Positions 14,883 through 47,158 of a stretch of 64,000 nt of DNA are shown here, piece by piece. Position 1 is the first letter of the stretch; the number at the start of each line of letters is the position of its first letter. The stretch covers positions 1,178,001 through 1,242,000 of the forward strand of contig JBBPFI010000001.1 in NCBI GenBank assembly GCA_037974965.1. The letters are read 5' to 3'. The position numbers were made by a program, and so were the translations under genes. Under the pieces are notes generated by a model, which did not search any database, had not been told where the DNA came from, and was given only the letters and a program-made list of their open reading frames with translations. Origin of the DNA: Dacryopinax spathularia. Lineage: Eukaryota; Basidiomycota; Dacrymycetes; Dacrymycetales; Dacrymycetaceae.

Positions 14883-15409
14883 GCCTCCCCACCGCTGCAA
14901 TAATATACGTTTTTGCATCTCAAATATCTGCTCGTTGCTCGTTTTGGTCTTTGCTCGTTTGCGATCCCCCCCTACCTGCCAAATCCTTCACTTCTCCTGT
15001 TCTAGATACGCGCCTGGGTGCTGCCTGACGGCAGGAGCGCAGGGAACTATGCGCAGTTATCTGCTTGACCAGTGAATCTTATCCAGCCGCCAGCTGCTAT
15101 TGGAACCCCGCAGACTCGCCTTTACACGCCGGCGGAATCACGTAGGGGTCGCCACGTAGTCGGTTCGCTGGCACAGAAACACGTTTGAGATTCGGCGTAA
15201 GGCCGTGATTAGATCGGAAGCGAGGGCTATCTTTCCCATGTTGACAGGATCGTTCCTGCCCTGACCATACGATTTCCAACCACGGCTCTGAGAAGCAAAC
15301 AGATAAGACGAGATCATCATCAAATTGCCTTTTTGGGTACATTATGCGCCCGAGGGCCTGGCTCAACGTGCGTGTTGAACGCTACGCTACAAAGTCCCAA
15401 GGATATTCC
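14883..15409. other. Convergent spacer between cytochrome b5 and tannase 1
   Basis: 3' flanks of two convergent genes. No gene or clear repeat seen. Confidence 0.55.
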
Positions 15410-17387: not shown

Positions 17388-18098
17388 CTTTCCTTGCTCT
17401 GCCAAACAGCGGAGCGGTCAATGGCGCCTACATCGTGGGAAACCAGCGACGTTGATGCCTATATACCCTCCTGATGGGGAATAGGAATTTCGTTCATGAC
17501 CGGCTGCGGGAGAGCATGTATGCAGCGAGTTCGGGACGTCAGTTGAGCTCGTGAAGGAACGCGTCGAGGCTGAATGGCTCGCCCGGCGTCAGGTCACAAG
17601 GCGTCCATTGCCGTCACCGACATTTCGAGTGAAGGAGGCCCCATTTGCCTGTAAGACGGCAGCGAGATTTCAGCGAATCTCAAGCGATTGACATATTGGG
17701 CTGAGTTACGACCATGAAAAGAAGGTTGAGCTCAGTTCAGTTGTGAGGCAGACGACGTCAGATGTCCCTATCCGGATGAATGCTTTGCACGGACGCCGAC
17801 GAGGTCATGGCGCTGTGTCGTTCGTTTCTCCTGCTGCTGACCTCGGAGTAAGCCGTGTTTGATCAGCCGAATGCGGTTTCGATGAAAGGGGGGGCTGAAG
17901 ATGGGAAAAGGTCTCCAGGTTCCCGCCTTTCCAAACCGAAGGTCACTTTTACCGCGTTCTTCTCTTCATCATCGAACTTGCCCTCCATGGTCTGAGAACG
18001 CGGGAAATCTTTTGATAACCCCTTTTAGTAAGTATCCTTCCCGAGGGGCCTAGACAGGCCCGAAGGTCTGTACACTACAAAGTCCCAATGTCATATTT
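17388..18098. other. Spacer between tandem esterase genes
   Basis: Promoter of esterase copy 1 and 3' flank of copy 2. No gene seen. It contains a short G-run and no obvious repeat shared with the region upstream of copy 2. Confidence 0.5.
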
Positions 18099-27850: not shown

Positions 27851-30002
27851 CTACCACCCAAATGTCTCAACATGCAAATCCACACTCGGCCGACCCTTGA
27901 GCACCTTGCCGAAACCAACAATTCCCTTCTCGGTCAAAGCTGCGCGGACGGCATTCGACAACCCTGCAGGTCCGCACACTATCAATGTCATCAGCACCTC
28001 CTCTTCTTCTCGACGTAAAGGACGTACCGCCAACAGAGACAGGCCCTTCGGACTCCAGGACGGCATGCTTGATGATCTCCCGCACATCGGGCCTGCCCGA
28101 GTGCACTTCCACGCCCAGCAGCCTGACCAACCCTGCAATCTCGCCCGCGCCCTGCTCGCCAGCAACATCCGAAAGAGTCTTAACGCTCGTAAAGCTGTTA
28201 CTCCTCGCCGGACTCTTCTCCCCTTCTCTGTTACTGGTGATCTTCTCCTTCTCGAGCTGGTTCAGGTCCAGCAGGGACTCGGTATGCGTCACCCAGAGGC
28301 TGATGCGCAGGTCCACTCCCTCTGGCGCGGACCGGATGAGTGCGGAAAGATCGCGGGCGATCCACTCGAGGTGCTGCGAATGCCTGACGACCCACACGAA
28401 CTCGACTCTTTTCGCAACCGCTTTTCCCGCTCTAGCTTTGCGCAGCACGTCGCCGAGCAGCGAAATTGTGTAGCTCACCCCGCTCCCGCCTGCAATTAGG
28501 AGGACGGTCGAATATTCGTCCAAGCTCGGAGGACACCCATACGCCCCATCGACCAGCGCTGTAACCTTACACTCCCCTCCCAGGGCTTGCGCACGCGCCA
28601 TCAGGCGCTTTGTGAACCCATCCCTGGCACGAACGATAAACTCCAGTTCTTGCACCCTGTTACTCAGCATTCCCAGTCCCGATGTCGCACCCTCCGGAGC
28701 GCAGGCGATAGTGAAAGGGTGCATCTCCCAGGGCATCCTACTCACCCCCGGCAAGCAAAGGAACGCGTGCTGCCCCGCTTTCCAGCCCATAGGCCGGCGG
28801 AGGGTGATCCGAAGTGTGCAGTCTGACAGGGCCTGTGCGTGGGCGTGAGCGGAGGGAAGGAAGAAGGCGCGGTTTGTGAGGATGACGCGGAGGGTGCGGG
28901 CGAGTCGGTCGAGTGCCCAGAGGGAGAGGGAGGGGAGGATCCAGTAGTTGTCCGAAGGCTTGTGGTAGTAGGCTCCGAGGAGGAAGAAGCTTTTTTCCGG
29001 GCGCGTCAGTATCACGTTGCCAGGTTTGCAGTGAGGGAGAGGAGGCTCACAAGACTAGGATGATATGACTCCAGAGGAAAACCTCGTAGAACTTTTGCCT
29101 GATCCAACGGAATCCGAGCAAGGTCGTGAGCGCGAAAGAGGTAAGGGAGACAGTACCCCATATCATGATCGGCTGATAGATCGCATGTGCGCCATTGAGG
29201 CCGATAAGATAGCGGCCAAACGCGTGGGTGCAGGACACTGCACGGTACTCAGTCATCCGGGCCAAGTGGAAGGTTTGAGGAGCCTTACGAATGAGAAGAG
29301 TCCGACCGGCGGAGCGGTGCAGGATGTTCAGCTTCTCGGGACCTACGCCCGTAAGGAAGGAGATGACGTTGTTCTTCCCTGCCAAGCCAACTACAAGGGG
29401 CGTCTGTCCTAGTGCGATCCAGGCATTCCGGTTTGCAAAGTCGCTCGGCCCGTTACCTATCACGAGCAAGAAATGGTCAGCATACTGAAAGATAAGGAGG
29501 CATGGAAGCGCGCACTCAGGACGTAGCCCCATGTCATACAGGCCAACATGTACGCGCTGCAGAAGAAGACTTCGATGACTGTCATCCGGATGTCGCGGTT
29601 CAAGCTGATAGGCATAGACCAGCGATAGAGAACGACCTTCCACAGGCTCGCGATCCCACCGGGAAGGTTCCTCCAGGAAGCAGCACCGTTGTTGCCTTGG
29701 GTGGTGGCTTCTCCTTCTCTGCCCTGGCATGCAGAAACGGAAGCGTGCCGACCACGACGAAGCCGGAAGGAGCGTCGAACCAGAGAGGCGCCGTACAGGA
29801 GCATCGCGACACCGACGAGGGCAGCGACGGACCACCACAGTTGAAGTGGATAGTTCTCAATCTGCCAGCTCCGGAATGCCTTCTGCGCATTCTGTGTCGA
29901 GGCAGCCTTGGTTGCGGAAGCGGCCGCCTTGGTGGCCGTCACGATGCCGGTCGTGGCGGACTTGCTGTGAACGGCCGTACCGTTTGTTGAGTAGGAGGAC
30001 AT
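27851..30002 (-). CDS. Ferric reductase transmembrane component, copy 1
   Basis: Plasma-membrane metalloreductase of the FRE/NOX superfamily: it passes electrons from NADPH through FAD and two haems to extracellular Fe(III) or Cu(II). Multi-exon; outer limits are given. The Ser/Thr/Ala-rich N-terminus precedes TM1 (WWSVAALVGVAMLLYGASLV). Further on are LAGKNNVISFLTGVGPEKLNILHR (haem His), a second His region THAFGRY, the FAD motif MHPFTIACAP, the NADPH motif LLIAGGSGVSYT, WVVRHSQHLEWI, the C-terminal VCGPAGLSNAVRAAL and a final ETFGW-stop. The terminal Trp next to the flavin is typical of ferric reductases. First of three tandem paralogues; its promoter side faces the mobile block at 31-41 kb. 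Confidence 0.9.
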
Positions 30003-31180
30003 GATGAAGTCTTAGGCGTTCTCCCAGTCTCAGATGTCGAGGCTCTGGTATCTTGACACCCCATGTTCATAGAGTTCTTATATGCAATTGTGCAGGTCAA
30101 ATCCTACAAATCCCTCTGGACGACGCAATGCGCTCGATCGGCTGTCTCGTTTACTGTGTTGGGTGAGGTGCTTCTCCCGCTACAGCATGTTGAAAACCGG
30201 TCATCCTGCCATGGGAAGAAGGACAATCGTTCGGGTGACGGGCCCCGAAAGATCAGGAACAGATAAATGGTTCGCGGAGGACTGATGTCGATGAGGTCCA
30301 CTGGAGTTTCGAGTCATCGGCCGATTCCGATACCCCATATGGTATGGTGTGAGCCATCGCAGAAGGTTCCGCAGGAGTAGTCGCCCAACAAGAATCACAA
30401 TACAACGAGGGAAGCGAGTAGCACGTTGATTAGTGTGTGTGTATCAGAGGAAAACTTTGAGAACGTGACAACCGGGGACCAAGGTGCGGCGGGACGGGAC
30501 CCTCTTACCGCAGGGTTGGCGCAGATCGCGCTTCGCTCCACGCGATTATCTACGGCTTCCGTCGGAGCATCATTCGCCACCCATCTAATCGTTTCTCGGC
30601 GATGTCCATATGCCCCTTCCTTCGCCATAGATGGGAAAGATTGTACCTTACAACTGGACTGCGGTACCTCGGGTTCGCGAGGCCTTACGTACAGTCTAAG
30701 CCCCTTCACAAGGGACTTCGTAATCGGACATTACCGGAGCCAATTGAACGTAATGTGTTCTTCACTATCTGCAAGGAGCACATGCGTGCTTTCGGTACGA
30801 TTCGATCACTTGGCGGTGACATTCCCGTTTGCGCGCCTCACTTTCCGATCTCTATGGATCCTAAACCGCTTACCATCACCGCGTTTCGGGCATATATTGA
30901 CGAGGTCAGGGAAGCAGGTTTAAGGTTCGCTCGGCGGGTCTGTTGCAGTCGGAGATAAGGTTAGCTTTGCTGGAATCCACTGAAGCTTAGGATAGGTAGT
31001 CTGGGGCTAGATTAATGGGTCGCTGTAAAGGTACAATTAGCTAATAACACGAAAAGGTTACATTTCTGTGTCTGAAATGCTCGCCAGTGCATGCCTTGGA
31101 CTAGTGGACTGGTAGTAGTACTAGCACTAGTACTAGTACTACTGAGTAGTACTCGAATGGTACTTCGAGTGCCACTTTTG
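30003..31180. other. Spacer between ferric reductase 1 promoter and mobile block
   Basis: No recognisable gene; two open frames at 30426..30923 and 30602..30958 have no domain. A GATAA core occurs near 30263 in the reductase upstream region, but without the full ATCWGATAA iron-GATA consensus, so no regulatory claim is made. A CTAGTA-type simple repeat (about 31110-31150) marks the approach to the mobile block, whose left end I could not define. Confidence 0.45.
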
Positions 31181-31220
31181 TGAGTTGTGTAGTTGTACCG
31201 ACCGAGGAGGCCGGTACAAC
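31181..31220 (-). repeat. Motif copy 1, with inverted half
   Basis: Complement form TGAGTTGTGTAGTTGTACC at 31181..31199, followed by an opposed partial copy. The arms GTTGTACCG (31192..31200) and CGGTACAAC (31212..31220) can form a hairpin with an 11-nt loop. Lies 3' of gene A, at the left edge of the block. Confidence 0.85.
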
Positions 31221-31274
31221 CACCTCCAGAAGCTGCACTCCCGGTGCAAGCAGCGAGCGTTGCATTAATATTGG

Positions 31275-31310
31275 TTGTGTAGTTGTACCGACCGAAGTCG
31301 GTACAACTAC
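31275..31310 (-). repeat. Motif copy 2, perfect palindrome
   Basis: The complement motif without its first bases leads into a perfect inverted repeat: 14-nt arms GTAGTTGTACCGAC (31279..31292) and GTCGGTACAACTAC (31297..31310) around the loop CGAA. Lies 3' of gene A. Confidence 0.88.
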
Positions 31311-31385
31311 GAGTATATTCATAACGGGTGACGCTCTTCTTACTTGTAACGACAGGTCTAGGTTTACGTACGCCTCAACTCCTCC

Positions 31386-32482
31386 TCAGTTCCCGATTCC
31401 CCCGCCCACGTTGTTCTCCAGGAGATCCACGCCGACTTTCACTAAAGAAGATATTAGTAGACAATTGAAGTAATAATTAAAAAGACTTACCGCCAGCTTT
31501 GGCGATCGAAGGGCCGTACTTGCCCAAAAACTTCTTCACAGCGGGGAAGACCTTCTCCTTTCCCTCGTGCGCCTGCTGGGCGAGGTGGTGAGTCGCCTCG
31601 GCGAGACGGTGCTTGGAGGGGCCGGCGTGACGAGCGCGGCGCTCCTCGTCGACGGCCTTCTTGCCGAGCTCGACGTGCTTCTCCCAGTGAGCGTCGTGGA
31701 TCTTCTGACGCTGCTCGCGCAGCGCCTCGGCTCTCTCCTTCTCCTCGAGGTGCAGCTCCTTGTAGCGGAGCTGCTTGCCGAGCTTGAACGCCGGCCCCTC
31801 AATTCGCTCGAGTTCCACCTGGAACTCCTCCGGGAAGATGTACCCGAGGTGAACGGGCGGCGTACGCTCTTCCTCGAGCTCCTCGATCGTCGGCAGGTTG
31901 AAGGTGACGGGGAGGGGCACGGTACGAGCGTCTTCCTGTCGGGGACGAGCGATCCTCGGGACCTCAGGTGCGTCCTGAGATGAGTCAGCTCTGGAATGTA
32001 TGCGTACCGACCTCAGTCGGTACAACTACACAACTCACCTGCGCCATCGCGTCCTCCTCCAACAAGGGGATGAGTGGCATACCAGCCACCATCGCGGGCG
32101 CACCCACGTCCCGCTCAACGCGGCGGACGGCGGCCACGACGGCAGCGGTAGGCACTCCCCCAGCCCCAGCCCCTCCAGCGCCCTCAACCCCTCCTCCAAC
32201 CCCCGCTCTCCCCATCCCAGCCCCACTCCCCTCTCCCATTACCTCCTGCGACGCATATATCTTCGTCGCACCTTGATCTTGCTTGTTGTCCGGCTTTCCG
32301 GACGATGACTTGCTCGAGCTCGAATCCCCGCTCGACTTGCGCGAAGGATGGACGATCTCCTCGGCCAGCTTGATATCAGAAAGCCCGCTGTGCGCATTGT
32401 CAAGCACAGCGGGCAGAGAGATGTTGGAGCCGAAGAAGGTGTTAGCGACCGATGACATCGAGTCGCTGTCGGGGTCGTCCAT
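31386..32482 (-). CDS. Unrecognised protein A of the mobile block
   Basis: Family not recognised. Three exons (32482..32039, 31974..31491, 31441..31386) give 327 aa. The N-terminal half is Ser/Lys-rich, then Gly/Ala-rich (low complexity). The C-terminal half is charged and probably largely helical: PTIEELEEERTPPVHLGYIF, then YKELHLEEKERAEALREQRQ, a His-rich stretch, and a basic/hydrophobic end (FPAVKKFLGKYGPSIAKAG) with a hydrophobic terminus VGVDLLENNVGGGIGN. Intron 1 (31975..32038) begins exactly at the end of motif copy 3 and takes its 5' splice site from it. It could be an element accessory protein or captured cargo. Confidence 0.7.
32004..32038 (+). repeat. Motif copy 3, supplies the 5' splice site of gene A intron 1
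   Basis: Core at 32019..32037, extended by C at 32038. The arms GTACCGAC (32004..32011) and GTCGGTAC (32016..32023) form a perfect short palindrome around CTCA. Read on the gene A strand, the copy starts GTGAGT directly after an exon ending CAG. Confidence 0.88.
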
Positions 32483-33132
32483 TGCTGATAGTCGTGGTTT
32501 GGAGGAAGAAAGGAAAGGCGCGAGCGAGAGGTTGATAGGGGTAAGTCGGCCGCGCGGGTTTTTTGTTTAGGGCGGACTCATACGAACTTCCAGATAACGA
32601 CGAAGCCGGATTTCGAGTCTTGATGAACCTGTGTGGCGGGAATGTAAGGAAATATCGGTGTTGAGTTGTGTAGTTGTACCGACCGAGCACGAGGCTCGTG
32701 CCAGCACGATACACGAGGCTGAGGTGAGGCTGGTTCTGCAGTGTAGAAGACAACGGTCGAGATGGGTGCGAATGAGTCGCAGGTCGTAGAGGTCGAGGAG
32801 CAAGCATTTTACAGTCGATATTTATGTATTGCTGAGGTAGAGGATTGCAAGATCTTGGACAATCGTATTCAGATTGGCGCCCGAACCTTGATCCTCGACC
32901 TTCATCCATATCGGGACCGGAAGCGATCTGGGGTACATACATGCTGACAACGCGAACAGCCCCTAGGCCAGCAAACCTCGTCTGTCTCTTAGTACTCTCA
33001 GGTTCACTTCCTACTCTACTGATATTCAAGGCAACTTCTAAGCAAACGTTAACCCAAGTGAGTCTAGGTATTGTTTTTGTTTTTCGTGGCGACTGCTAAC
33101 AGTAAAATTTTCAGTTTCTTTCCTAGCCTAAG
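32483..33132. other. Divergent promoter region of genes A and B
   Basis: 650 bp between the start codons of genes A (leftward) and B (rightward). It contains motif copy 4 and an adjoining hairpin. No further gene seen; small open frames at 32762..33099 lack features. Confidence 0.55.
32662..32702 (-). repeat. Motif copy 4 with adjacent hairpin
   Basis: Perfect complement form TGAGTTGTGTAGTTGTACC at 32662..32680, followed by GACC and then GCACGAG-G-CTCGTGC, a 7-bp stem hairpin. Lies between the divergent genes A and B. Confidence 0.85.
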
Positions 33133-34656
33133 ATGGCTGAAACTATCTCAAGTCCGCTGTCAGCCTCGAGCCCGAGGATCACAGCGGACAGTGAGGGAGA
33201 CCGTACGCACCCTGTCATTCATATGGGGTTATTGGCAGTGACTGACAGTAGTACAGATCTCGGCTCCCGATTCTGGCATTCTAGACGTGCCAGCCCCGAG
33301 CGAGCGGCTGGCGTGGTTGCTCGGGGCATGCAGAAGATCGCCGGAACCCGTCTCGGTCGGTACAACTACACAACTCACTTCGGCCTTCGCCTGCGGAAGG
33401 CCCCGGTAGCCGCCACTGCTACCAACCCCTCGACAGATATCGCCGGTTCTGCGAGCTCTGTCGACTCCGCTGCCCGCCTGCGGGGTAGCCCGGTCGCCGA
33501 CACTGCGATCACCCAACCTATGCTCGCCGATCCTGCGAGTGACCTCGGTCGGTACAACTACACAACTCAAGCTCCTCGCCTGCGGGGGAGCAACCCCGCT
33601 GCCCGCCTGGGGGGCAGCCCGGTCGCCGATCCTGCGATCACCCAACCTATGCTCGCCGATCCTGCGAGTGACCTCGGTCGGTACAACTACACAACTCAAG
33701 CTCCTCGCCTGCGGGGGAGCAACCCCGCTGCCCGCCTGGGGGGCAGCCCGGTCGCCGACAATGCGACCACCCAAGCCTTGGAATCTTCTTGCTCTGCAGA
33801 TGTCCAGGTGCCCGTGATTGCTGGGCAGGAGCTCAACCGCGTTCAGGTAGATGCTGATCCTGCATCTCCGCCTCTGTACTCTTCCCTCATCACCTCATCC
33901 AACCCCACCTCATCCAACCCCACCTCATCCAACCCCACCTCATCCAACCCCACCTCATCCAACCCCACCTCATCCAACCCCACCTCATCCAACCCCACCT
34001 CATCCAACCCCACCTCATCCAACCCCGCGTCACCTAACACCGATCTCGCCCTCCCCACGGTGCAGAACCTCGACACCACCCTAGTCCATTCTGTCAACAC
34101 CATCCCAACCACCACCATCCCATCCACCACCATCCCATCCACCACCATCCCATCCACCTTCACCTCAGCCAGCATCACGTCCAGCATCACCCCCACTTCC
34201 ACCATCCATCCTATCACCCATCCGACCAGTTCCGATCCCTGTGCTGATGATGATGGTGCTTCGGTCAACTCTGAAGTCCTTCCAACATACAAGAGGTGGG
34301 AAGACATCCCACCCATCTATGCAACGCTGCGCATTCCACCCGAATTCGCCAACGCTGCTCCTCCCAGTCGATTCTATCCAAGAGAGGATGTCCTCATCGC
34401 TCCAGCAGCTACTACGAGCTCTCGGGCAACTTCTAATGGCACCAATCCCCCTGCACGTCGCTCAGCAGCCTTTGCCTATGCGCTCCAGCATCACTACAAG
34501 TACCAGCCCCTCAGCAGCCGTTATAACCTCGATCCTGTCGGGATGGAGGCTATGGCACGTGCTGAAGCTGAGAGAGAGTGGGAGCAGGAGAGAGCAAGGA
34601 GGCACATGGGCTGGGCTGCTCAGCCTCAGGCTCATTTCATTCCAAGCGCAGCGTAG
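33133..34656 (+). CDS. Unrecognised repeat-rich protein B of the mobile block
   Basis: Family not recognised; a single exon of 507 aa. The first third contains three in-frame copies of the block's DNA motif, each translated GRYNYTT(H/Q). The last two sit in a 43-residue repeat (129-bp period) of the form LGRYNYTTQAPRLRGSNPAA plus ADPAITQPMLADPASD. The middle has eight SSNPT units and one SSNPA (15-bp tandem DNA), then IPSTT repeats. The C-terminal ~120 residues look like real globular or helical sequence: YKRWEDIPPIYATLRIPPEF, FYPREDVLIAP, YALQHHYKYQPLSSRYN, and an acidic/basic helix near MARAEAEREWEQERARRHMG. It could be a DNA-binding accessory factor, as TnpA is for En/Spm, but no known domain is visible. 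Confidence 0.65.
   Translation: MAETISSPLSASSPRITADSEGDRTHPVIHMGLLAVTDSSTDLGSRFWHSRRASPERAAGVVARGMQKIAGTRLGRYNYTTHFGLRLRKAPVAATATNPSTDIAGSASSVDSAARLRGSPVADTAITQPMLADPASDLGRYNYTTQAPRLRGSNPAARLGGSPVADPAITQPMLADPASDLGRYNYTTQAPRLRGSNPAARLGGSPVADNATTQALESSCSADVQVPVIAGQELNRVQVDADPASPPLYSSLITSSNPTSSNPTSSNPTSSNPTSSNPTSSNPTSSNPTSSNPTSSNPASPNTDLALPTVQNLDTTLVHSVNTIPTTTIPSTTIPSTTIPSTFTSASITSSITPTSTIHPITHPTSSDPCADDDGASVNSEVLPTYKRWEDIPPIYATLRIPPEFANAAPPSRFYPREDVLIAPAATTSSRATSNGTNPPARRSAAFAYALQHHYKYQPLSSRYNLDPVGMEAMARAEAEREWEQERARRHMGWAAQPQAHFIPSAA
33359..33698 (+). repeat. Motif copies 5-7, in frame inside gene B
   Basis: Three perfect cores at 33359..33377, 33551..33569 and 33680..33698, all read in the same frame as Arg-Tyr-Asn-Tyr-Thr-Thr. 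Copies 6 and 7 belong to a 129-bp tandem duplication; copy 5 stands outside it. Confidence 0.9.
33890..34025 (+). repeat. 15-bp tandem repeat coding SSNPT
   Basis: About nine units of TCATCCAACCCCACC inside gene B, keeping frame. Near-identical units suggest recent slippage expansion. Confidence 0.9.
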
Positions 34657-35117
34657 TCGAAGCATTCCGTCACCTTATGGATACGATGCTCCTTGTCCTA
34701 ACTAGCCGTCAGAGTTTTCCCCCTTTCCTCCACTAGGTATTTCTCTCCACCGCACAACCCTCTGCGGTTGTTCTTTCCATTCCTTTCTTGTACTCTTGTG
34801 ACAACGTCCTGTATTGGCCTTTGTGCCACAGCCAACTTAATTCACTCTTTGGAAATACGTATTGGCGCCCAGGAAGCAGAAGTCCGACGCAGTGGAAGGT
34901 TCTTCCTGGACCCTGGCCTTCTTTGCTAATCAGGAAGTCCTCGTTGTTGCCTGCCAACATAGCAACCAAGGGCTCACCTCACACGCTCCTCTTTCCTTCC
35001 TAGTCCGCCGGTATTGTAGATACAGGAGAGAGATTCGAGGGGAAGGATGCCAAGGTACGCCTGCTGTAAGTTCCTCCCGCGAAAGCTTGCTCACTGTCCT
35101 CTAGCCCTACTTCGAAG
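34657..35117. other. Spacer between gene B and transposase
   Basis: 461 bp, likely the promoter of the transposase gene. No motif copy and no gene recognised. Confidence 0.5.
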
Positions 35118-38100
35118 ATGAAAGCCTTGGGCTTCTCAAGCAAGAGGCCGGGGCGAAATTCGTCTGCCGGAGCGACCACTCGCTGCTTTTGTGACGAGTG
35201 CAAGACGCCTGGCCGCCCGAATGGAATTGCTTGGACCTCGAAGAACTACAGCAAGCATTGGGCGGTCGTCGATGCTCGTGCAAGTCGGGCTGCGCTGCGT
35301 TCAACTCAAGTCGGCCACAATACCGATCAGCAACCCTCGAACTACCTGGAGTCGCTGGAAGCGCCTCAGGGTATGGTGGAAGATCAGTGGGGATATCAAG
35401 GATGGAGTACTATAGACGACGACCCGATGCGAAACGCATACGAAGCGACCGATGATGCGGGCGACCTTCCCGACCTCACGTTTCGCTCTGGCTCTTCTCA
35501 CTCGCATTCCGAGGCGATAGCCAGCTCTCCTCCTCCTCCTACCCGCCGTCAAGCTCCATCGCCTCCCTCCTCATCTCCTCCTCCTCCTCCTCCTCCTCCT
35601 CCTCCTCCCCCTCCACCACCACCACCACCGCCGCCACCACCACCACCACCTCCTAAGCATCTCCTCGCAGCATACAAAGAGTCGCCAGGGTACTCGACCG
35701 ATACAACTACACAACATGACGATTCAGCGACCGTATCGGCTTCGACCGGTACAACTACACAACAGATGGACTGCCCCGATGGAGATCTGGTCAGGCAGCC
35801 CTCATCTCCTGCCACAGATACCAGGCCAGCAAGCTTGTCGATCGGTACAACTACACAACATCAGGCCAATCCTGATGTTGCTGGCGATGGACTTCCAGTT
35901 GAAGAACTCGATATCCCACTCTCAAGCCCTCCTACGGGTGAAGCTCTTCTCCATGCGACTGAGGCACCCCTTCAATGTTATTTCGGCTTACACCCCCATG
36001 CTGGAGTGAGGGCTATCTGCCTTCTGGTGGTCCACCTACACTCCCGCTACGGCCTTCCTCATCTGGCCTGTACTCTTCTGGCAAGCATGTTGTATACTTT
36101 GCTGGCTTTCTTTCAAATCCTCTCACCCCTTGCAACCATCTCTCAAACGGCTCCACCACCTCGCACATTGAATACTATGTACAGACGCTTACGGTTGTGG
36201 GATCGTTTCGAAGTCAAGACCCTTTGTCCGAAGTGCTGGGCTTTCGAGGATTTCGACCACAACCAAAACGATCCCGATCTGCTCGACGACCTCGGTCTAC
36301 CGGATACCGACATTACGGTCGATTCCAGTGCAGACTGGCAGAGGTATTGCCCGCGCTGCAGCGTACCTTTGTACGAGCTGGCCCCCAAGTCGGCTATTCC
36401 TCGACCCCTGCGACAAGCGCCGTACGACTTACTGTCCGCCCAATTGGCGGAGTTCTTAGGACAACCAGGATTCGAAGCAGCGTGCGAAAGCTACCTCGAC
36501 GAACCCCGATACCCTGGCACGTACGGGAGTCTTCAAGATGGTAGCGTTTGGCAGAACATGCGTATGCCGGATGGCACGCTTTTCTTTCCTCGAACGCGCC
36601 AGGAGGCGGCTCTGCATGACGAGCTGCGGCTAGGCGCTCTCTGTTCCTGCGATTGGTTTAACCCCAGCCAATCCACCGTCGCCGAGTCCCATTCCAGCGG
36701 CCCTCTTTCAATTTGCATAGGCAATCTCCCCCCCGAGCTGAGGTTCGTCCATTCACATCCTTTCGTGAGCCAAATACTTACCGCACATTGCAGGTTCCGC
36801 GTCCACAACTTGATGCTCATTGGTATTCTACCCGGTCCGAAAGAGCCGAACAGCGATCAATTACAGCGTTTTCTTCGCCCTTTAGTGGACGATCTGTTGC
36901 GGCTCTGGCAGGAGGGGATCGTGATCAAGACTCCCAACTATCCTCGAGGTGAGTACTCCTCTGTCAGTACAACTACACAACTCACACGTCTGATAGGTCG
37001 TAGAGTGCGAGTGGCTCTTCTGGCAGTCGTTTGCGACCATCCTGCCTTGTGTAAGATGTGCGGCTTCGCAGATCAGCGCCACAACGTCCGTCCGTGTACG
37101 CAGTGCGAGATCTCTCGTGAAGACATGTTGAAGAAGGGCTGGGAAATCGAAAGCGTTCCCGCTCGAGACGGGGAGCTCCATAAACGCCATGCCGCTCGTA
37201 TGTTCGCTATGCAGCAAGCAAACGCGTCCGACAGCAAGATCAAGGCATATTTCGCTCGGCACGGCGTACGGTGGTCAGAGTTCTGCCGCCTTCCCTACTT
37301 CGACCCCGTTACGATGGGTGTTATCGACCCGATGCATGCTTTCCTCCAAGGTAAGAGATTTCATCTTAACTGCACTTTCCCTGCTGACTCTGTACAGGAA
37401 TCACTAAAACCCAATGGTATAACGTCTGGGTCCAGGGGGGGAAACAGGAGGAGAAGATTCTACGAGAGACTACGGCTGCGGGTACGCGACGGGAGCTGGA
37501 TGAGATTCATGATATGCTCTCGACGTTTGAGATGCCCGTTTGGTATGCACGTCTGCCGAAGCAAGTTGGCACTCGTGGAGGCGGGAGTCTTACCTCAGAC
37601 GAGTGGAGATGTCTGGCCGTGTTGTATGGACCTGCTGCGGTAAGCCTTTCTAATCCATATCCTCTTAACACCCTTACTAACAGGCGTCAGATTCCTCCTG
37701 TGCTCGTTGCCGCCGGGCATTACTTTGCAGCCAGCAACTACCTCAAACTGGCGGCTTCTCTGAAGATCTTCATGAGGCGGGAGTTGACTGAAGCGGAGTT
37801 AGAGCGTGCATCCGGCCTTTTCAAGGAATACTTCGAGGAGTACGTCCAGGTGAGTCTCTTTGGTTGTAGTTGTGCCGACCTCAGTCGGTACAACTACACA
37901 ACTCACCTCTCATGCACTCTTCTGACTGCTGTGACAGCTCTATGGAAGTGACAATGTCACTCCAACATTCCATTGGGTGATGCATATGGCGGATCAAGTT
38001 CGTCGCTTTGGGCCTGTGCATGGCTTTTGGACCTTCTTATTCGAACGGCTCAATAAGGTTTTGAAGGGTTTCATGACGAACGGGCACAAGGGCGGCATAC

Positions 38101-39256
38101 TGGAGTTGACGTTCGCCAGGGCTTTGAAGAGGGAGATGAGCTTGGCTCGCATGGTGCGCATTTGTTGCAAAGCCCGCCCTACGTCCCGCGCTAATCCATA
38201 TATAGAACACTGTGCTATCTACCCAGCATGAAGATCCTCTCGCCCGTCTCCTCGCTATCGAGCTGCACAAACGCTCTCGGGATCTGGCCCGTACGGGCAC
38301 GTTGGCTGCTATAGCCAACGAGGCTCAAGATCTCGCGCAGATCGAGACGCGGAACCAGCCTTGCCTTCCTGAAGAGAAGGGTAAGCCGTTCATCCTGGAT
38401 CACGAACTGCAAAGGAACCTTCTCGATTGGTATCGTCGCTTCTTCCCGGATATGCGGATATATCATCCAGGCGATCCCAAGGCGCCCTGGCGCGCTAACT
38501 TCCTCAACTATCGTGCCACCTCATATCCAGAACTTTGACTAGACGGCAAGCGGATCGTGGTTGCAGCGGAGGACAAGTACAACAAAGGCGACTCGCTCGT
38601 ACTGTTACAGTACGCTCCGGGATTGCAGTGGGTTGGAGAGCTTCGTGCAGTCATCCGTCATACGCAGGATGGCGTGGAACCGTCGATCGCGTTCGCAGTC
38701 GTAGCCTGGCTGGTCCCTCTGCACGATACCCCTTCGCATGCGGAGCTCTATAAAGATCTGTGAGTCTATCGTAGTTTTCGCTTTCTTGTTCAGCCGACTG
38801 TCGGTCGGTACAACTACACAACTCACCCCTGGGATGATTGTGTGGGCCGACTGTCGGTCGGTACAACTACACAACTCACCCCTGGGATGAGTGTGCGGGC
38901 CGACTCTCAGTCGGTACAACTACACAACTCACCCCTGGGCTGAGTGTGTGGGCCGACTCTTAGTCGGTACAACTACACAACTGAGCTGGACTAAAGCTGA
39001 TTAAATACTTAGCAAAGAGCTCGAAGTCGACTTCTGGCGCTACAAGGTATATCAAGGACGAGATGACTTCGGTCCCGACAGCCTAATTCGAGCGAGTGAC
39101 ATCTGTGGAGTAGTTGCCAGGTGCACGATGGAAGTTGCGGGGCGCAAGATCTGGGTAACGACTGGATTAAGTAAGGTATGGCGAACGCAATATGCTACTT
39201 CGAGTCTGACAACACACTGATGTTGCTGTCTCAATTAGACTGGCCGAAGCCTATAG
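35118..39256 (+). CDS. Tnp2-type (CACTA-like) transposase
   Basis: Cut-and-paste DNA transposase related to Tnp2/TnpD proteins common in basidiomycetes. Exons that keep frame: 35118..36742, 36794..36948, 36997..37350, 37398..37639, 37691..37849, 37938..38153, 38206..38512, 38543..38759, 39013..39175, 39239..39256 (1151 aa; reading through the last intron gives a stop at 39220). An N-terminal CDEC finger is followed by a run of about 30 prolines and a CPKC/CPRC pair. Then come the family blocks ICIGNLPPELRFRVHNLMLI, CKMCGF, RLPYFDPVTMGVIDPMHAFL (Asp-Pro-Met-His), KTQWYNVWVQ, FHWVMHMADQVRRFGPVHGF and FERLNKVLKGF. The 38513..38542 gap is only 30 nt, so it is either an unusually short intron or a lesion. 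Plavaka-type relatives are an alternative family placement. Confidence 0.85.
35574..35655 (+). repeat. Poly-proline microsatellite in transposase
   Basis: CTC/CCT then CCA/CCG triplet run coding about 30 consecutive prolines near the N-terminus of the transposase. Codon composition changes part-way (CCT to CCA/CCG), suggesting more than one expansion. Confidence 0.9.
35700..35860 (+). repeat. Motif copies 8-10, in frame inside transposase
   Basis: Three variants ending CAACA instead of CAACTCA, starting at 35700, 35748 and 35844 (spacings 48 and 96 bp). They are read as (D/G)-Thr-Thr-Thr-Gln, a different frame from the copies in gene B. They lie in the low-complexity N-terminal region before the conserved domains. 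Confidence 0.85.
36966..36984 (+). repeat. Motif copy 11, in transposase intron 2
   Basis: AGTACAACTACACAACTCA, one change from consensus, inside the 48-nt intron 36949..36996. Its ACTCAC end lies about 11 nt before the acceptor and may serve as branch site. Confidence 0.85.
37866..37905 (+). repeat. Motif copy 12, palindromic, in transposase intron
   Basis: The arms GTAGTTGTGCCGAC (37866..37879) and GTCGGTACAACTAC (37884..37897) pair with one G-T-type mismatch around CTCA; the core is 37887..37905. Located in the 88-nt intron 37850..37937. Confidence 0.85.
38807..38984 (+). repeat. Motif copies 13-16, 53-bp tandem array in an enlarged intron
   Basis: Four cores at 38807, 38860, 38913 and 38966, exactly 53 bp apart. 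The inter-motif sequence is also conserved (CCCTGGG, GTGTG, GGCCGACT). The array fills most of the 253-nt intron 38760..39012, about five times the usual intron length here. Confidence 0.92.
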
Positions 39257-39439
39257 GGATACGTAGGCAAGTGGATCACGGTGGGCGAGCGAATGAAGGA
39301 ATGATCTGCTGATGCAGATCAACGGGCAGGTAACATGTACTAGAGCAGAGGTTCCGCTGGAATACAGTGAGTACCCGTTCGACTTTGACGCTGCAATTAC
39401 TTACTGGTGTCAAGATGTCTTTCCAACCTCTTTTTGGTC

Positions 39440-39458
39440 GGGACAACTACACAACTCA
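39440..39458 (+). repeat. Motif copy 17, between transposase and gene D
   Basis: GGGACAACTACACAACTCA, one change from consensus, in the short convergent spacer between the transposase stop and the gene D stop. Confidence 0.8.
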
Positions 39459-39479
39459 AGAGAGTTGTCAGCCCCTTCC

Positions 39480-41209
39480 TCAGGAAGGAACTTGCTCCAA
39501 CATCTTCTTGGTGATCTCCTCCGCCCGCGCCCCGAATGACTCGGGCAACGTCGACCGGCGAACCCAGTAGGATTCGTCCCATTTGGGCAGCTCGGTCTCC
39601 ATCCAGACAGGATCCAGCATGAAGTCGAATGGGATGATCCTTGGCATGCGTTTGGATACCCGGCCGAGGTCGATTCGCTTCATCTCCGGCTTGCGCTGGT
39701 CGATGGTACGAGCGCTACGCTGCCGTTTCAGCCAATTCCAAAGCTGAGCGAAGGTAAGTTTGTGAGCCAACGTAAATATATCTGACTGACCTTGATGTCC
39801 ATCCACACGGGGCGCTTCTCTTCCCAAACATCTGGGTTCGCAGCGTCCCGCTGTTCTGCTGAAATCTTACCGGTCAAAAACAGAGCGTTCCGCCACGATT
39901 CGCTTTTCTCGCCATCCTCGTCGCAAGACCACTCCTCGCCCATCCACTCCTCGTTAATGATCTCCAACGAAACGCGCGATAAAACGATATGGTGATCCTT
40001 GCAGAATTGCTTCAGCCCACGGCGTATCTGGGCGGCAGCCTAAGACAAGGTCAGCCATTTCCTCAAGCTTGTGCACCCTGCGTACTCACCAACTTGCGTC
40101 GTTCTACCCTCCTACCTCTGCTCGCCTTCATAGCCGTTGACAACCCCGCGTCAGCCGCGTCGGCAAGCTGGGCAAGCCAAATCGCCTTCATCCCTTGCCA
40201 GGACGATTGAGCGAGATCCAGGAGGACATTCTGGTCCAGCCAGCGCTCGCGATGAGTGAAGGGGACGAGATCCCCCTCAGTCTGTCGAATTGGTGAGTTG
40301 TGTAGTTGTACCGATCAGGTAACTTACTTACCTCTTCATGCTGCTTCACAGATTCAGCTGCTCGCAGCTGAATCATCAGATTCTCCCGGTCATCGACTCT
40401 AAGCCTGAAGTTAGGCGTCAAGAAGGGACCGGGGCCTGCTTCCTCGTCCGGAGGGGGCCCTCCTGCGCAGGGCATCGTGCGGCGCCTCCCATATCCAATG
40501 AGGCGATGCATTGCCTTCAAGATGGCGCGCTGACTTCCTGTGAGCACTACATCTGCTGAAGTATTTTGCCACTCACCTGCAGCGCTCTCTTTAGAAAAAT
40601 ATCGGTCTCGTCCAAGTCATCTTTGGGCAGCTGCGTAACCCGCCCTTTGAGACGTTTCGCAGGGTTCAACCCCAGCTCTTCCCCGTCAGCCTTCAACGCC
40701 GGTCTCTTCTTGCTCGACTTGACGGATGGGAAGGTCTGACCTTCGTCGTCGCCCGCGTATGCCGTATTCTCTTCACGTTGGAAAGAGGGATTGATGAGCG
40801 CGCTTGTAGAACGAGCAGGCGCGCCGGCAGGAGAGCCAAGAGACGGAAAACCACTAGAACTGAGCTGGGAAGGGATGGAAAGGCGGGGGCTTGGGATGAT
40901 GGGCGCTTGGGCGTGCTGTGAGCGTGTGGGCGCGCTGCTGAGGGAAGGGGGATGATAACCATGTGAGTTGTGTAGTTGTACCGACGAGAGGGAACCTACT
41001 CACTTGGTTAGCGCAGGTCGAGCCTGCAGACAGCGATGGAGGAGCCGAATCCTCTCGCCCTTTGCCAGCTGCTCGGGATCCTGGCTCTCAGCGTCGTGAG
41101 ACGACAGCAAGTTGTTCAGCTCGGCGACAAGCGCCATCGTATCGAGGAGGCCAGGGTCGACGGAGTAGGGCGAGTGAAGAGGGGAGCCAGTTGCTGGGGC
41201 GGGGAACAT
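39480..41209 (-). CDS. Unrecognised protein D of the mobile block
   Basis: Family not recognised. Six exons (41209..41004, 40937..40577, 40529..40332, 40281..40090, 40039..39791, 39743..39480) give 489 aa in frame. The first ~190 residues are Pro/Ser-rich and basic. The rest looks globular: LRVDDRENLMIQLRAAESVK, FTHRERWLDQNVLLDLAQSS then WQGMKAIWLAQLADAA, a basic RGRRVERRKL, AAAQIRRGLKQFCKDHHIV, and a Trp-rich acidic part (EEWMGEEWSCDEDGEKSESW and KRPVWMDIKLWNWLK), ending with FDFMLDPVWMETELPKWDESYW. Introns 1 and 3 each contain a motif copy. Convergent with the transposase. A transposition partner protein is an inference from position only. Confidence 0.75.
40294..40312 (-). repeat. Motif copy 18, in gene D intron 3
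   Basis: Perfect complement core inside the 50-nt intron 40282..40331 (gene D on minus). On the gene strand the copy ends CTCAC about 10 nt before the CGACAG acceptor, so it may provide the branch site. Confidence 0.88.
40964..40982 (-). repeat. Motif copy 19, in gene D intron 1
   Basis: Perfect complement core within the 66-nt intron 40938..41003, in the same orientation relative to the gene as copies 11, 12 and 18. Rightmost copy found. Confidence 0.88.
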
Positions 41210-41573
41210 CTTATTTCGCTGGGCGGTGGAACTGCGGTGAGGACGAGCGGTCTATGAAGGAGAGGGGGATATTTTATGGTGGGACGTAAAGGTAGCCCGA
41301 GCAAGCAGAGAAAAAAAGATATTATTTTGGGGATTATGTAAAGATGATCAAAGATGGGCTATGCTAGGGTTTGCGGAGGCCGCCTTCTCTTATCTTGGCT
41401 GGTATTAAAAAAAGGATTCATTAATATCTGGGCGGCAAGACTACCTTTAGTGAGAAACAAAAAAGGCTAGGAAAGGTTGGTTTGTTTATCCTTTCTTGGA
41501 AAAGGCGAGATCCCCTCAGCTTACTCATATTAGCTTACCTTTCCTTGACTTTTTTGGCGCCGAAAATACTCCC
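41210..41573. other. Right edge of mobile block, AT-richer spacer
   Basis: 364 bp between the start of gene D and the stop of ferric reductase 2. Richer in A/T runs than its surroundings and with short inverted pieces (CCTTTCTTGGAAAAGG near 41490), but no terminal repeat could be matched to the left side. No gene. Confidence 0.45.
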
Positions 41574-44000
41574 TTAAAACGCGGTGCATCCAAATTGCTC
41601 AACGTGGAGCTCTACCTCAGGTCGACCCTTCAGCGCGCCTGACCAACTGGAAATCTCCTTTCTGCGAAGCAAGGATCGGACGGTCCTTGAGAGCGACTCC
41701 GGTCCGCACACTATGCCCTTATCAGATATGGTAGGTCTTGGCATGAGTAGCAACGTACCGTCAACAGACACTGGTCCCTGGGAATTGTTTACTTGTTCTT
41801 GGAGCAGGGCTTGCAGATCCGGGCGACCATCCTGAATTGTCACTTGGGAGAATCGTGCCAATGGCTGATCGGGAGTTGACGATCCACTTAGGTCGGTAGA
41901 GGACAGCCCGCTCTTCACGGACGAAGAGGTGCTATCTTTGCTGACGAGGCCAGGTCTCGCTTCAGGATCATTGCTGAGAATCGGCAAGTCGGCGGATATT
42001 GTAGTTGTCCCTGTAACGAAGATCTTGATTACTATTTCCAGACCGGTCGGCACGGTTCTGAGCAAGCCAATAAGGGGTTCCGTGGCCCACGAAAGATGCG
42101 TATATTGTCGAGCAATCCATACAAAGCAGACTCGCTGAACAGCAGGTGCCCGTATTGGATGGTACTGGACAATGTGCGATAGTTGAGCGAGTGTGTACGA
42201 GATACCGCTTCCACCTGCGCAGCTGTGTCAGTCTTGTTACTCCTCACGCAAATAACACAAGCGAACCTGCAATCAGAACTACAGTCTGGTACTGCAGCAA
42301 GTCAGGGGGCATGCCGTATGGTCCGTCCACGAAAGCAACCAGTTGCCCCTCCCCCCCTCCATTGGCGGCACAAGATAGCAACCTTCTGGTGAAGCCATCC
42401 CGTACGCGCACAATGAACGTAAGTTCATTCTCACCGCCGGATTTGCCTTCTGATGATTGGGCGCGAGGCGTGGGAGCTGATGCGATGGTGAACGGGTGGG
42501 CTTCCCACGGTAAACGGCTGACTCCAGGCAATACGAGGTATGCATGTTGCCCGGCGCGCCATGTCATCTTCCGTTTCATCGTAATCTTGACAGTCTCATT
42601 CGTTAGTGCATGAACCGTTGCATGTGTGTAGTCCTTCAATGAGGACGGTACTGCCGAAAGCCAGAGCCGATTGAGGAGGAGCATCCTGGTCATTCGGGCC
42701 AGCCGATCTGATGCCCAGAGTGCGAAAGACGGATAGATCCAATATGCAGCTGACTTCTTGTGCATAATGCACCCCGCAAGGAAGAAGCTATGCCAAGAAC
42801 GTGAGCACGGCTATAATGGCCTTAGGAAGACCTTTCTTACCAGATAAGGATGATGTGGCTGACCAGGAAGAACTCGTAACACAATCTCCGGATGAACCGA
42901 AAAGACAGAAGCCAAGTGGCAAAGAAAGAGACCATCGCCACTGCTCCCCAGATCATGGGCGTGGTATAGATAGCATGCTTCGATCCCAAGCCGATGTACA
43001 CCCAGGCGAATGTGTGAGCCAACGACACTGGAAATATGTCAGAAAATGGCAGAGAAACGGCAACGATATCGGCTCACAAATTAGGACAGCTCTTCCCGCG
43101 GTTCGATGAAGGACATTGAGCTGGAAGATTATGAGCAACCGCTAAGACGGACGCAGCAAAAGCTCTACCTTTTCCGGACCGATGCCCGTGAGGACTGCGC
43201 TTGCGATCAGTGAGTGCTCGGAGAATTGGACGAGAGGCTTACATGATATGACATTATTCTTTCCGGCCAGACCCACAATGAATGGTGTTTGTGCGTATGC
43301 TAACCATCCTGTCCGGTTGGCGAAGCTATTGGGGCCGCTCTCACCTAAGATGCTCAGTACGGCATTAAGTGAATTAAGGAGCAGACCTACTATTAATGAA
43401 ACCGAACATCATGCATGATGCCAGGTAGCCAGCACAGAAAATAGCCTCTCCGAGATTGATCCTCTGAGCACGGTCCAGACTGGTAGGGATGGTGACTCGA
43501 TACAGAGTCTTGTACCATATAGTAGAGAGAGCTGGGATTATGTTGCGATAGGAGGGAGCGTCCTGGCGACCCGCCTGGATCACTTCACCGTCCTTCGGCT
43601 CAGCACTGCTACCAGAGCTGCCGTGTTCTCGACGAGATTGTCGACGTAGATAGCCGCGAACGAGGGAGCCAAGGTAGAGAAGAGCCAAGAAACCACCCAT
43701 AGCTCCAATGAGCCACCACTGGAATAACGGGTAATTGGTCATCATCCATCGTTGCAAGGTTCGGCTGGCATCTTGGGCGGTGTTATTTCCGTTGCCTCCC
43801 CTTCCGGTAGAAGTCGAGGTAGCACTCGCAGCGTTGGAAGACTGAGTAGCCCCGTCGTGACCGCCATTACGGGTTGCACTGCTGATGGCGGCAGTCGCCA
43901 GGGAGGTCGCGGCCGACACAAGAGAGGCGCTCGCTGAGGCTGCTCTACTTCCTGTCCTAGTCCCGCCTGAGTTTCCAGTTCGAGATGAAACAGTCGACAT
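41574..44000 (-). CDS. Ferric reductase transmembrane component, copy 2
   Basis: Second tandem FRE paralogue; multi-exon, outer limits given. The Ser/Thr/Gly-rich N-terminus MSTVSSRTGNSGG leads to TM1 (WWLIGAMGGFLALLYLGSLV). Further on are WLAYAQTPFIVGLAGKNNV, the His motif SLAHTFAWVYIGLG, WRAGQHAYLVLPGVSRLPWE with AHPFTIASAP (FAD), VVLIAGGSGISYTLAQL (NADPH) and VCGPESLSRTVRSLL. It ends EQFGCTAF-stop, whereas copies 1 and 3 end FGW-stop, so the flavin-stacking terminal Trp is missing. The mobile block begins directly beyond this end. The start at 44000 is preferred; an upstream in-frame Met exists at 44117. Confidence 0.88.
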
Positions 44001-44751: not shown

Positions 44752-47158
44752 TCACCACCCAAATTGCTCGACATGCAGCTCAACTTCAGGTCTACCACGG
44801 AGCGCAGCGCCCCAGCTGGCGATTTCCTTCTTCAATAGCACAGTTCTAACTGCTTGAGTCAGGGAGCTGGGTCCGCATACTAGAGAAATGATGGTGAGTC
44901 TTGGCGCTCAACCTGCAGCGACTAGTCTCCATACCGCTGACAGATAGAGGCCCTTGAGCGGCATCAACTTCTTCCTTCAACAAAGAACTGAAATCTGGAC
45001 GCCCATCTTGCATCTTGACTTGTGTAAGGCGGAGCAGGTGAGGATGGGGACTTCCATTTGTATCTTCGGAAGAAATGCCGCTTTTGACCGACGAGAACGA
45101 ATCTTTATTGGTCAATACAGGCTTTTCCGTCGCTTCGCTGATGAGTAGAGGCATGCTCGATGGTGCTGAAATGGTGTGTGTCACAAATATCTTGATGTCG
45201 AGGTCTAGTCCGTCGGGTGCTGCTGACACCAAGCTCGCAAGGCTCTCGTTGACCCATTCCAGATGCGAAGTTTGCCTAATGACCCAGACGAAAGAAACCC
45301 GCCTGATCGTGGAATTCGTGACCGGATGGCACTGAAGGATGCGCGATAGTTGTGAAAGGGTGTAGGAAATACCGCTGCCACCTGCGAGCGTTCGTTCAGT
45401 TTATTTGTTTCAGATGATTCACGACTCATACCTGCGATGAGAACCACCGTGCTGTACTGGAACAGGTCAGGTGATAGACCATATGGTCCGTCAACAAACG
45501 CCATGACGGTGCTCTCTCCGCCGTCGCTAACCGCGCGAGCCATCAATCGCTTGGTGAAACCATCTCTGGCTCGAACGAGGAAGACGAGCTCGTTTTCTAT
45601 GTTGTCGCGGTCCTCCTTTTGGGGCGAGCTGGGCGGAGGAGAAGAAGCCACTGTGAACGGGTGTGCTTCCCATGGCAAGCGGCTGACGCCAGGAATGACA
45701 AGATAGACGTGTTGCCCAGCATTCCATGTCATCTTTCGCTTCATCGTAATACGGATGGTCATGTCGGAGACGGCTTGTATCGTTGCCTTCGTGTATGCTT
45801 TCGACGAGGACGGAACCACCGAGAGCCAAAGGCGATTCAGAAGTATCAATCGGATGATGCGAGCGAGGCGATCCGCTCCCCATAGTGCAAAAGATGGGTA
45901 CAGCCAGTATGCTCCGCGCTTGTCATGCAAGATGCAGCCCAAGAGGAACAGGCTAAGAACGATATACGGATTAGACGCTGAAAAGAACAGCCTTTGAAGA
46001 ATTGCTTACAAGATCAGCACGATGTGACTGAGCAGGAAGAACTCGTAACAGAGCCTCCGAACCATGCGGAAGGAAAGGACTGTGGTGACGAACAATGCCA
46101 CAGTAGCGACCGTGCCCCAGATCATAGGCGGAGTATTGATGGCATGATGAGTCCCCGGTCCGACTCCCAGGGAAACCCAAGCAAACGTGTGCGCCAGCGA
46201 TACTGAGCATGAGGTCAGCCAGCAGCAGGCATTGATCGTGCGGTTCAACTAACGGATGAGCATTGTCCGACCAGCTGTTCGATGCAAAACATTCAGCTGA
46301 AACAGGGCTTAATAGATGGAAGTGGTAAATTGTGGGTGCATACCTTTTCGGGACTCACGCCAGTGAGATCTGCAACAGACAATCAGGTCTATGTAGATGC
46401 GGCGATTGAGTGATACTTGCATGAGATGAGGTTGTTCTTCCCGGCTAAGCCGACCACGAAAGGAGTTTGAGCATATGCGAGCCATCCTGTCAAATCGCCG
46501 TATACCGCCGGTCCAGAGCTGCCTGAAGCCACCACGTCAAACGCGAACTACGAACACGAAAGATTTGCTTACTCTGGATGAAGCCAAGAACCAGCGCGGC
46601 GGTGACATAACCGACGCAGAAAAAGGCTTCCCCAAGGTTCATACGCTGGGTGCGATCGAAGCTTGTTGGAAAAGTCCATCGATAGATCACCTTGTTCCAT
46701 ACTGTTGAGACAGCGGCGGGCAGATTTCTCCATGATGCGGTACCCTCGCGACTCCCGACGGTTTCTCCTTCGGCTGATCTCGGCTGATCTCGCCGCCCAG
46801 CCTTATGGCGAGGAAGATAAGCTCTGACCAAGGAACCGATGTAGAGAAGCATGACCAGACCGATCGCCGCTGCAACTAGCCACCATTGGAACAGTGGATA
46901 GTAGGTGTACCAGTAGTTCTGAAGCGATTTAGCGGAGTTGCCCGTCGTACCTCCGCTACTGCCATGTCCTCCACTAGAGGCAGTCGAGCTTGCTGCTGCT
47001 GTACTGGACGTAGTCGACCCGGCATTATGGCCCTTGGCAGTGGAAGCGCTGCCGGATGCCGTACCTATCGCGGAGCTGAGGGCTGAAACGAGGGTTCCCG
47101 TCGCTGACGAGCTTCTATCGCCTCCATTGCCCGTCCGAGCCGCCGATGATGAGGACAT
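44752..47158 (-). CDS. Ferric reductase transmembrane component, copy 3
   Basis: Third tandem FRE paralogue; multi-exon, outer limits given. The N-terminus MSSSSAARTGNGGDRSSS is a long Ser/Thr/Gly-rich extracellular-type region. It is followed by TM1 (WWLVAAAIGLVMLLYIGSLV), the His motif SLAHTFAWVSLGVG, WNAGQHVYLVIPGVSRLPWE with AHPFTVASSP (FAD), VVLIAGGSGISYTLSQL (NADPH) and WVIRQTSHLEW. It ends VEQFGW-stop, keeping the terminal Trp. It is closer to copy 2 than to copy 1 in these segments, so copies 2 and 3 likely share the more recent duplication. Role: high-affinity iron uptake, feeding Fe(II) to a permease/oxidase pair not present in this window. Confidence 0.9.

Follow-up and report, generated by a model that had tools for sequence, protein, structure and literature searches.

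Repeated motifs in described transposons and in the Dacryopinax block

Plant transposons provide the described systems with which we compare a repeated motif from the fungus Dacryopinax spathularia, scattered through a block of about 10 kb that carries a gene for a Tnp2 transposase. The block lies in a 64-kb stretch of contig JBBPFI010000001.1 (positions 1,178,001 to 1,242,000; hereafter the window, by whose coordinates all positions are given), and the analysis covers the one copy of the element within it. TNPA-type sites are subterminal. VANDAL elements are Mutator-like, and the VANC motif is mainly non-coding. As far as we know, it is chiefly Arabidopsis VANDAL and VANC that show in detail how transposons can escape host silencing in a sequence-specific way. 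Passages of PMC2613891 describe the soybean CACTA repeats as subterminal units of 17-20 bp with GC-rich and AT-rich halves and stem-loops, linked to TNPA-like proteins, and according to the same passages protein binding remains undetermined. In VANDAL21, the 9-bp word YAGTATTAY occupies upstream as well as intronic sequence, keeps a single orientation, is tandem-amplified and is dense only in its family (PMC5735166, in part); VANC21 binds this word, and DNA methylation is lost (sections of PMC5735166 and PMC10398659). In fungi, some EnSpm and Plavaka elements carry a TET/JBP dioxygenase, proposed in sections of PMC12730594 to aid escape from silencing. Those sections mention no dispersed motif for these elements, and the main text does not contain the word "subterminal".

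Four genes (A, B, D and the transposase gene C, also called tnp2 here) are predicted in the block, from models made by hand from splice signals alone. The block combines stem-loop architecture and a Tnp2 transposase with a VANC-like spread of its motif, which here also reaches coding exons. It resembles soybean Tgmt*/Tgm1 and maize En-1 (CACTA/EnSpm; passages of PMC2613891) in its Tnp2 transposase, in the GC-rich and AT-rich halves of the motif and in the stem-loops. Like VANDAL21 with VANC21 in Arabidopsis (PMC5735166, in part), it has copies in introns and upstream of a gene, a single orientation within genes with one exception, and tandem amplification. A fungal CACTA-like transposase accompanied by extra genes is shared with the EnSpm and Plavaka elements (sections of PMC12730594); unlike some of these, genes A, B and D had no TET/JBP match in Pfam. 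In contrast to the TNPA systems, no TNPA-like protein was recognised here and terminal repeats were not found above chance. The difference from VANDAL and VANC lies in the length of the unit (about 25 bp vs 9 bp) and in the transposase, which is Tnp2 and not Mutator-like. Additionally, Pfam recognised no VANC-like protein among A, B and D, whether Pfam includes a VANC model being unchecked. The initial annotation of this DNA knew of no description of such a motif dispersed through the genes of a fungal Tnp2 element, and none was found among the titles and abstract beginnings of the open-licence PubMed Central (PMC) articles listed.

A conserved unit of about 25 bp and the location of its copies

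The 19-mer GGTACAACTACACAACTCA, allowing up to 3 mismatches, had 18 matches in the window; dinucleotide shuffling, repeated 100 times, left an average of 0.01. A further copy at 35700 has a different 3' end and 4 mismatches to the 19-mer, but its 14-bp core is exact, which brings the number to the 19 copies of a 19-bp motif that the annotation had reported. This core, TACAACTACACAAC, is exact in 18 of the 19 copies and has 1 mismatch in the remaining copy (39440), and no core copies with 2 or 3 mismatches are present inside the block. All copies are located between 31181 and 40982, 14 on the plus strand and 5 on the minus strand, so both orientations occur as annotated. Their positions were also as annotated, except that the copy placed at 31275 starts at 31271. 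Across the rest of the window (~54 kb), where the annotation had seen no copy, no core with 0-2 mismatches was found, and the best matches (9787 and 53243) have 3 mismatches. Moreover, all 10-mers and 12-mers that recur at a minimum of 10 distinct loci within 31000-41300 are part of the motif and have zero copies in the rest of the window; some motif 8-mers do occur elsewhere in it. The dispersed motif inside the Tnp2-bearing block is real.

Some copies are tandem duplicates, belonging to a 129-bp unit (33467-33774) and a 53-bp unit (38793-38982), and 15 separate loci remain when these are collapsed. A column profile of the 15 loci, with the tandem copies 33680, 38860, 38913 and 38966 dropped, contains 13 consecutive invariant positions, ACAACTACACAAC, directly preceded by an invariant C and, before that, by G, G and T in 14/15 loci each. 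Weaker columns follow on both sides (TCGGT upstream and TCA downstream, 11-13/15 per column), and the profile is near background beyond them. Conservation thus spans a sharply bounded unit of about 25 bp, TCGGTCGGTACAACTACACAACTCA. TCGGTC are the commonest bases before GGTACAAC, and the GTCGGTC or CAGTC annotated as preceding the motif were roughly right.

Between clusters, the copies are separated by gaps of 554-1202 bp, except for one of about 2.2 kb. Regular spacing was considered as a clue to chromatin packing and rejected, as the even-looking gaps were not significant (P 0.10-0.28). In wider searches, neither TACAACTACACAAC nor its complement was found in open-licence PMC text, and the 18-mer TCGGTACAACTACACAAC had 0 matches in viral contigs and 1 in prokaryotic genome contigs, a single site in Apibacter that chance would account for. 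A supposed likeness of CCGACTCTTA, from the 38966 copy, to the 12-bp site of TNPA in En/Spm was unconfirmed in print, where the one listed paper containing the site's presumed sequence concerns Klebsiella, and was not used.

Nine of the 19 copies are in introns (6 of the 16 predicted introns), six in coding exons and four in flanks, and 13 are over 1.5 kb inward of the outermost copies. Introns hold more loci than expected (6/15 vs 10% expected, P 0.003), as does non-coding sequence overall (10/15 vs 28% expected, P 0.002). The coding copies occupy the repeat-rich part of gene B and, in the transposase, a stretch after a polyproline run and before the Tnp2 domain. A repeated peptide was ruled out as their explanation: the core is read as GRYNYTT in gene B and, in a different frame, as TTTQ (three times) in the transposase. 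Specifically, the three tnp2 copies use the identical codons ACA ACT ACA CAA, whereas ACA makes up only 3 of the 59 other Thr codons in this gene. Since the six coding copies are in two frames and use a rare codon in the transposase, the constraint on the motif is on nucleic acid, not on protein.

In 8 of the 13 non-coding copies, namely 31181, 31271, 32019, 37887 and the four copies of the 53-bp array, the GC-rich half of the motif, GTCGGTAC, forms a stem-loop with the sequence immediately upstream. The best contiguous stem, summed over the 19 copies, amounts to 93; 2000 shuffles of the upstream sequence averaged 53.7 and never exceeded 69 (mononucleotide shuffles, with tandem copies that are not independent). 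In the minimum-energy fold of 32662, the CGGTAC half is paired in a longer interrupted stem. Among the six coding copies, only 35748 has a stem, a shorter one; the minimum-energy folds contained no comparable stem at that place in the other five, nor in 36966, 39440, 40294 and 40964.

When 39440, which lies between convergent genes, is set aside and 31181, 31271 and 32662 are presumed to belong to gene A, 17 of the 18 copies are sense to the gene containing or adjoining them. Once related copies are pooled, the sense loci number 12 of 13 (P 0.0017). Copies within one gene may share their orientation by descent, and the gene-level count therefore gives only 4/4 (P 0.06, worked by hand). The complement of the motif plus C begins with GTGAGT, a strong splice donor, and selection would therefore disfavour transcribed antisense copies. 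Predicted intron 1 of gene A (31975-32038) starts with the lone antisense copy (32019) itself, which appears to provide its splice donor. The orientation bias hints at a role in RNA and does not show it.

Explanations for the motif

We favour, at roughly even probability, the explanation that the copies are recognition sites for a DNA-binding protein encoded by the element, similar to those of TNPA or VANC but distributed element-wide. Recognition sites are supported by cores that are exact in 18/19 copies while the flanks reach background within a few bases. Further support comes from the lack of cores with 0-2 mismatches outside the block, from the two frames and the repeated rare codon of the coding copies, from the non-coding and intronic enrichment, from the tandem amplification and intron location shared with VANC21 targets, from halves and stem-loops like those of the soybean CACTA repeats, and from the Tnp2 transposase. 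Many copies would mark the whole element as "self", and the protein could coat it. The coating protein might, like TNPA in En/Spm, bring the ends of the element together for transposition, or it might instead keep chromatin and transcription open, as VANC does in VANDAL elements. Copies would accumulate where the genes tolerate them: within introns, beside genes and in coding parts under little constraint. The binding of a protein, its encoding by the element (gene A, B or D, or the N-terminus of the transposase) and its purpose are what we infer.

Several observations weigh against such recognition sites. The comparisons with En/Spm and VANDAL made in the initial annotation hold for intron location, stem-loops and tandem arrays and fail in two respects: the copies are spread throughout the block, introns and coding exons included, unlike the subterminally clustered repeats of CACTA/EnSpm elements, and six of them are in coding exons, unlike the mainly non-coding VANC sites. 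A DNA-level site does not need the sense bias, which splice-site avoidance may explain. No known DNA-binding domain was found by Pfam in genes A, B and D, or by a PDB sequence search in D. Additionally, there is no footprint of methylation-driven decay for the element to escape from, because the CpG observed/expected ratio is 0.92 in the block vs 0.95-1.02 in the flanks; together with a TpA/ApT ratio of 0.78 vs 0.58-0.67, this gives no strong sign of methylation decay or repeat-induced point mutation in the block. No second copy of the element was seen in the window, and the present one may be inactive because the transposase gene contains one in-frame TGA (38536-38538), located after the conserved core and followed by the same frame, open beyond it.

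More tentatively, and with some doubt, we propose that the motif is an element-wide self-recognition code, in which a word of about 25 bp in or beside all four genes, within introns and, in more than one reading frame, within coding exons, is read by the element's own protein on DNA or on transcripts and protects or mobilises the whole element. If true, anti-silencing or self-marking would here be achieved independently of VANDAL and VANC, and outside plants. A dispersed, nucleotide-constrained motif in a fungal CACTA-like element would suggest a separate origin of the strategy, with another transposase, and the locus offers a defined sequence and four candidate proteins. Should the block contain just a TNPA system in spread-out form, it would still show that such sites can lie away from the subterminal regions.

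The main rival to protein-binding sites on DNA, in our judgement a rather unlikely one, places recognition at the RNA level: the sense motif in every transcript, often behind a hairpin, would be recognised by an element or host RNA-binding protein or by a small RNA, with control of splicing, export, stability or silencing as its proposed role. The sense orientation of 17/18 copies and of 12/13 merged loci fits this, as do the stem-loops at non-coding copies and the presence of at least two copies within or beside every one of the four predicted genes. However, orientation within genes may reflect descent, the GTGAGT complement would select against antisense copies and the lone antisense copy is itself a predicted splice site. 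Moreover, the nine intronic copies would be spliced away, five of the six exonic copies are without a comparable hairpin, and Rfam gave no match in 30000-42000 at E up to 1, by which a known RNA family was rejected.

It is improbable that the motif is a tiny palindrome, originally of ~50 bp, that copied itself or was copied by repair, has lost one arm to decay and is functionless for the element. Copies 31271 and 37887 are indeed long palindromes, others have shorter matching stems, and a unit in the gene A intron resembles units in the tnp2 introns, motif included (58 and 73 columns, 82-84%). Nevertheless, one arm is exact where the other decays, and neutral decay should leave a spread of mismatches, whereas the cores are nearly all identical; the other ~54 kb contain zero copies, and the coding copies keep frame, with a stem in at most one of six. 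Local duplication within the element, by which the apparent conservation would merely reflect recency, is very improbable. The 129-bp and 53-bp tandem units do contain copies, but 15 loci are left after collapsing them and the flanks are at background within a few bases, which disfavours block duplication because it would carry the flanks along. Equally slight, or slighter, is the probability of a host regulatory or chromatin-factor site carried many times at this locus by chance. Nothing specific speaks for it; 25 bp would be long for such a site, the gene-rich flanks lack close core matches, and copies lie inside coding exons.

Genes, ends and surroundings of the element

The coordinates of the predicted genes and of the motif copies are given in Table 1.

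Table 1 Predicted genes of the element and copies of the motif (window positions)
Feature	Position	Strand	Remarks
Gene A	31386-32482	-	Predicted 327 amino acids, 3 exons; only two weak sub-cut-off Pfam matches
Gene B	33133-34656	+	Predicted 507 amino acids, low complexity; no Pfam match
Gene C, Tnp2 transposase (Transposase_21)	35047-39256, exact 3' end uncertain	+	10 predicted exons
Gene D	39480-41209	-	Predicted 489 amino acids, 6 exons, open throughout in the model used; no Pfam match
Motif copy	31181-31199	-	Predicted 3' flank of gene A, sense; stem-loop with G-U pairs
Motif copy	31271-31289	-	Predicted 3' flank of gene A, sense; 14-bp perfect stem, 4-nucleotide loop
Motif copy	32019-32037	+	Gene A intron 1, antisense; complement is predicted 5' splice site GTGAGT; 8-bp stem
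Motif copy	32662-32680	-	180 bp upstream of gene A start codon, sense; in longer interrupted stem
Motif copy	33359-33377	+	Gene B coding, read as GRYNYTT
Motif copy	33551-33569	+	Gene B coding, within 129-bp tandem repeat
Motif copy	33680-33698	+	Gene B coding, within 129-bp tandem repeat
Motif copy	35700-35718	+	tnp2 coding exon, read as TTTQ
Motif copy	35748-35766	+	tnp2 coding exon, read as TTTQ; 7-bp stem in fold, one G-U pair
Motif copy	35844-35862	+	tnp2 coding exon, read as TTTQ
Motif copy	36966-36984	+	48-nucleotide tnp2 intron (36949-36996)
Motif copy	37887-37905	+	88-nucleotide tnp2 intron (37850-37937); long stem with G-U pair
Motif copy	38807-38825	+	53-bp tandem array, tnp2 intron 38760-39012
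Motif copy	38860-38878	+	53-bp tandem array
Motif copy	38913-38931	+	53-bp tandem array
Motif copy	38966-38984	+	53-bp tandem array
Motif copy	39440-39458	+	One core mismatch; between convergent 3' ends of genes C and D
Motif copy	40294-40312	-	50-nucleotide gene D intron (40282-40331), sense
Motif copy	40964-40982	-	66-nucleotide gene D intron (40938-41003), sense

The spliced core of gene C matched PF02992 above the cut-off (E 2.5e-14), as is characteristic of the Tnp2-type transposases of CACTA/EnSpm (CMC) transposons. Weak matches below the cut-off were obtained with Plavaka PF18759 (1.7e-4) and DUF4218 (8e-4). A comparison of the tnp2 stretch 36606-37349 with a viral collection yielded two stretches matching the pattern, and neither was confirmed as a relative.

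The annotation had described a mobile block of 10 kb, of which the transposase was confirmed and the ends were not found: no terminal inverted repeat with target duplication around the block stood above 20 offset controls. The candidate ends CACTA at 31125 and TAGTG ending at 41452 (9/13 matching) have a summed score of 11, within the null range of 0-14, and a target duplication of only AG/AG. The best-scoring alternative ends, 30877/41586 (CAT), have a score of 13, also within this range. CACTA/EnSpm elements have CAC(TA)...(TA)GTG termini with terminal inverted repeats and duplicate 2-5 bp of target, most often 3 bp. It is by its transposase that the element is taken as a probable jumping gene.

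In gene D, intron 2 was modelled as 47 nucleotides, which keeps one frame open; the 39-nucleotide choice with the same donor gave stops. The PDB sequence search with gene D returned three matches (best E 0.22), and an AlphaFold2 model of one exon, made without an alignment, had a mean predicted local distance difference test (pLDDT) score of 56.5, too poor for a fold search. Gene B contains 15-bp tandem repeats at 33891-34026 and 34098-34158 that encode SSNPT- and TIPST-type peptides.

Three ferric reductase-like genes are located on the minus strand (27867-29856, 41574-42810 and 45205-46005), and the block sits between the first two. Elsewhere in the window, the stretches 15383-17341 and 18071-20027 share 74% identity across 2 kb, each matches tannase/feruloyl esterase, and they are probably tandem paralogues.

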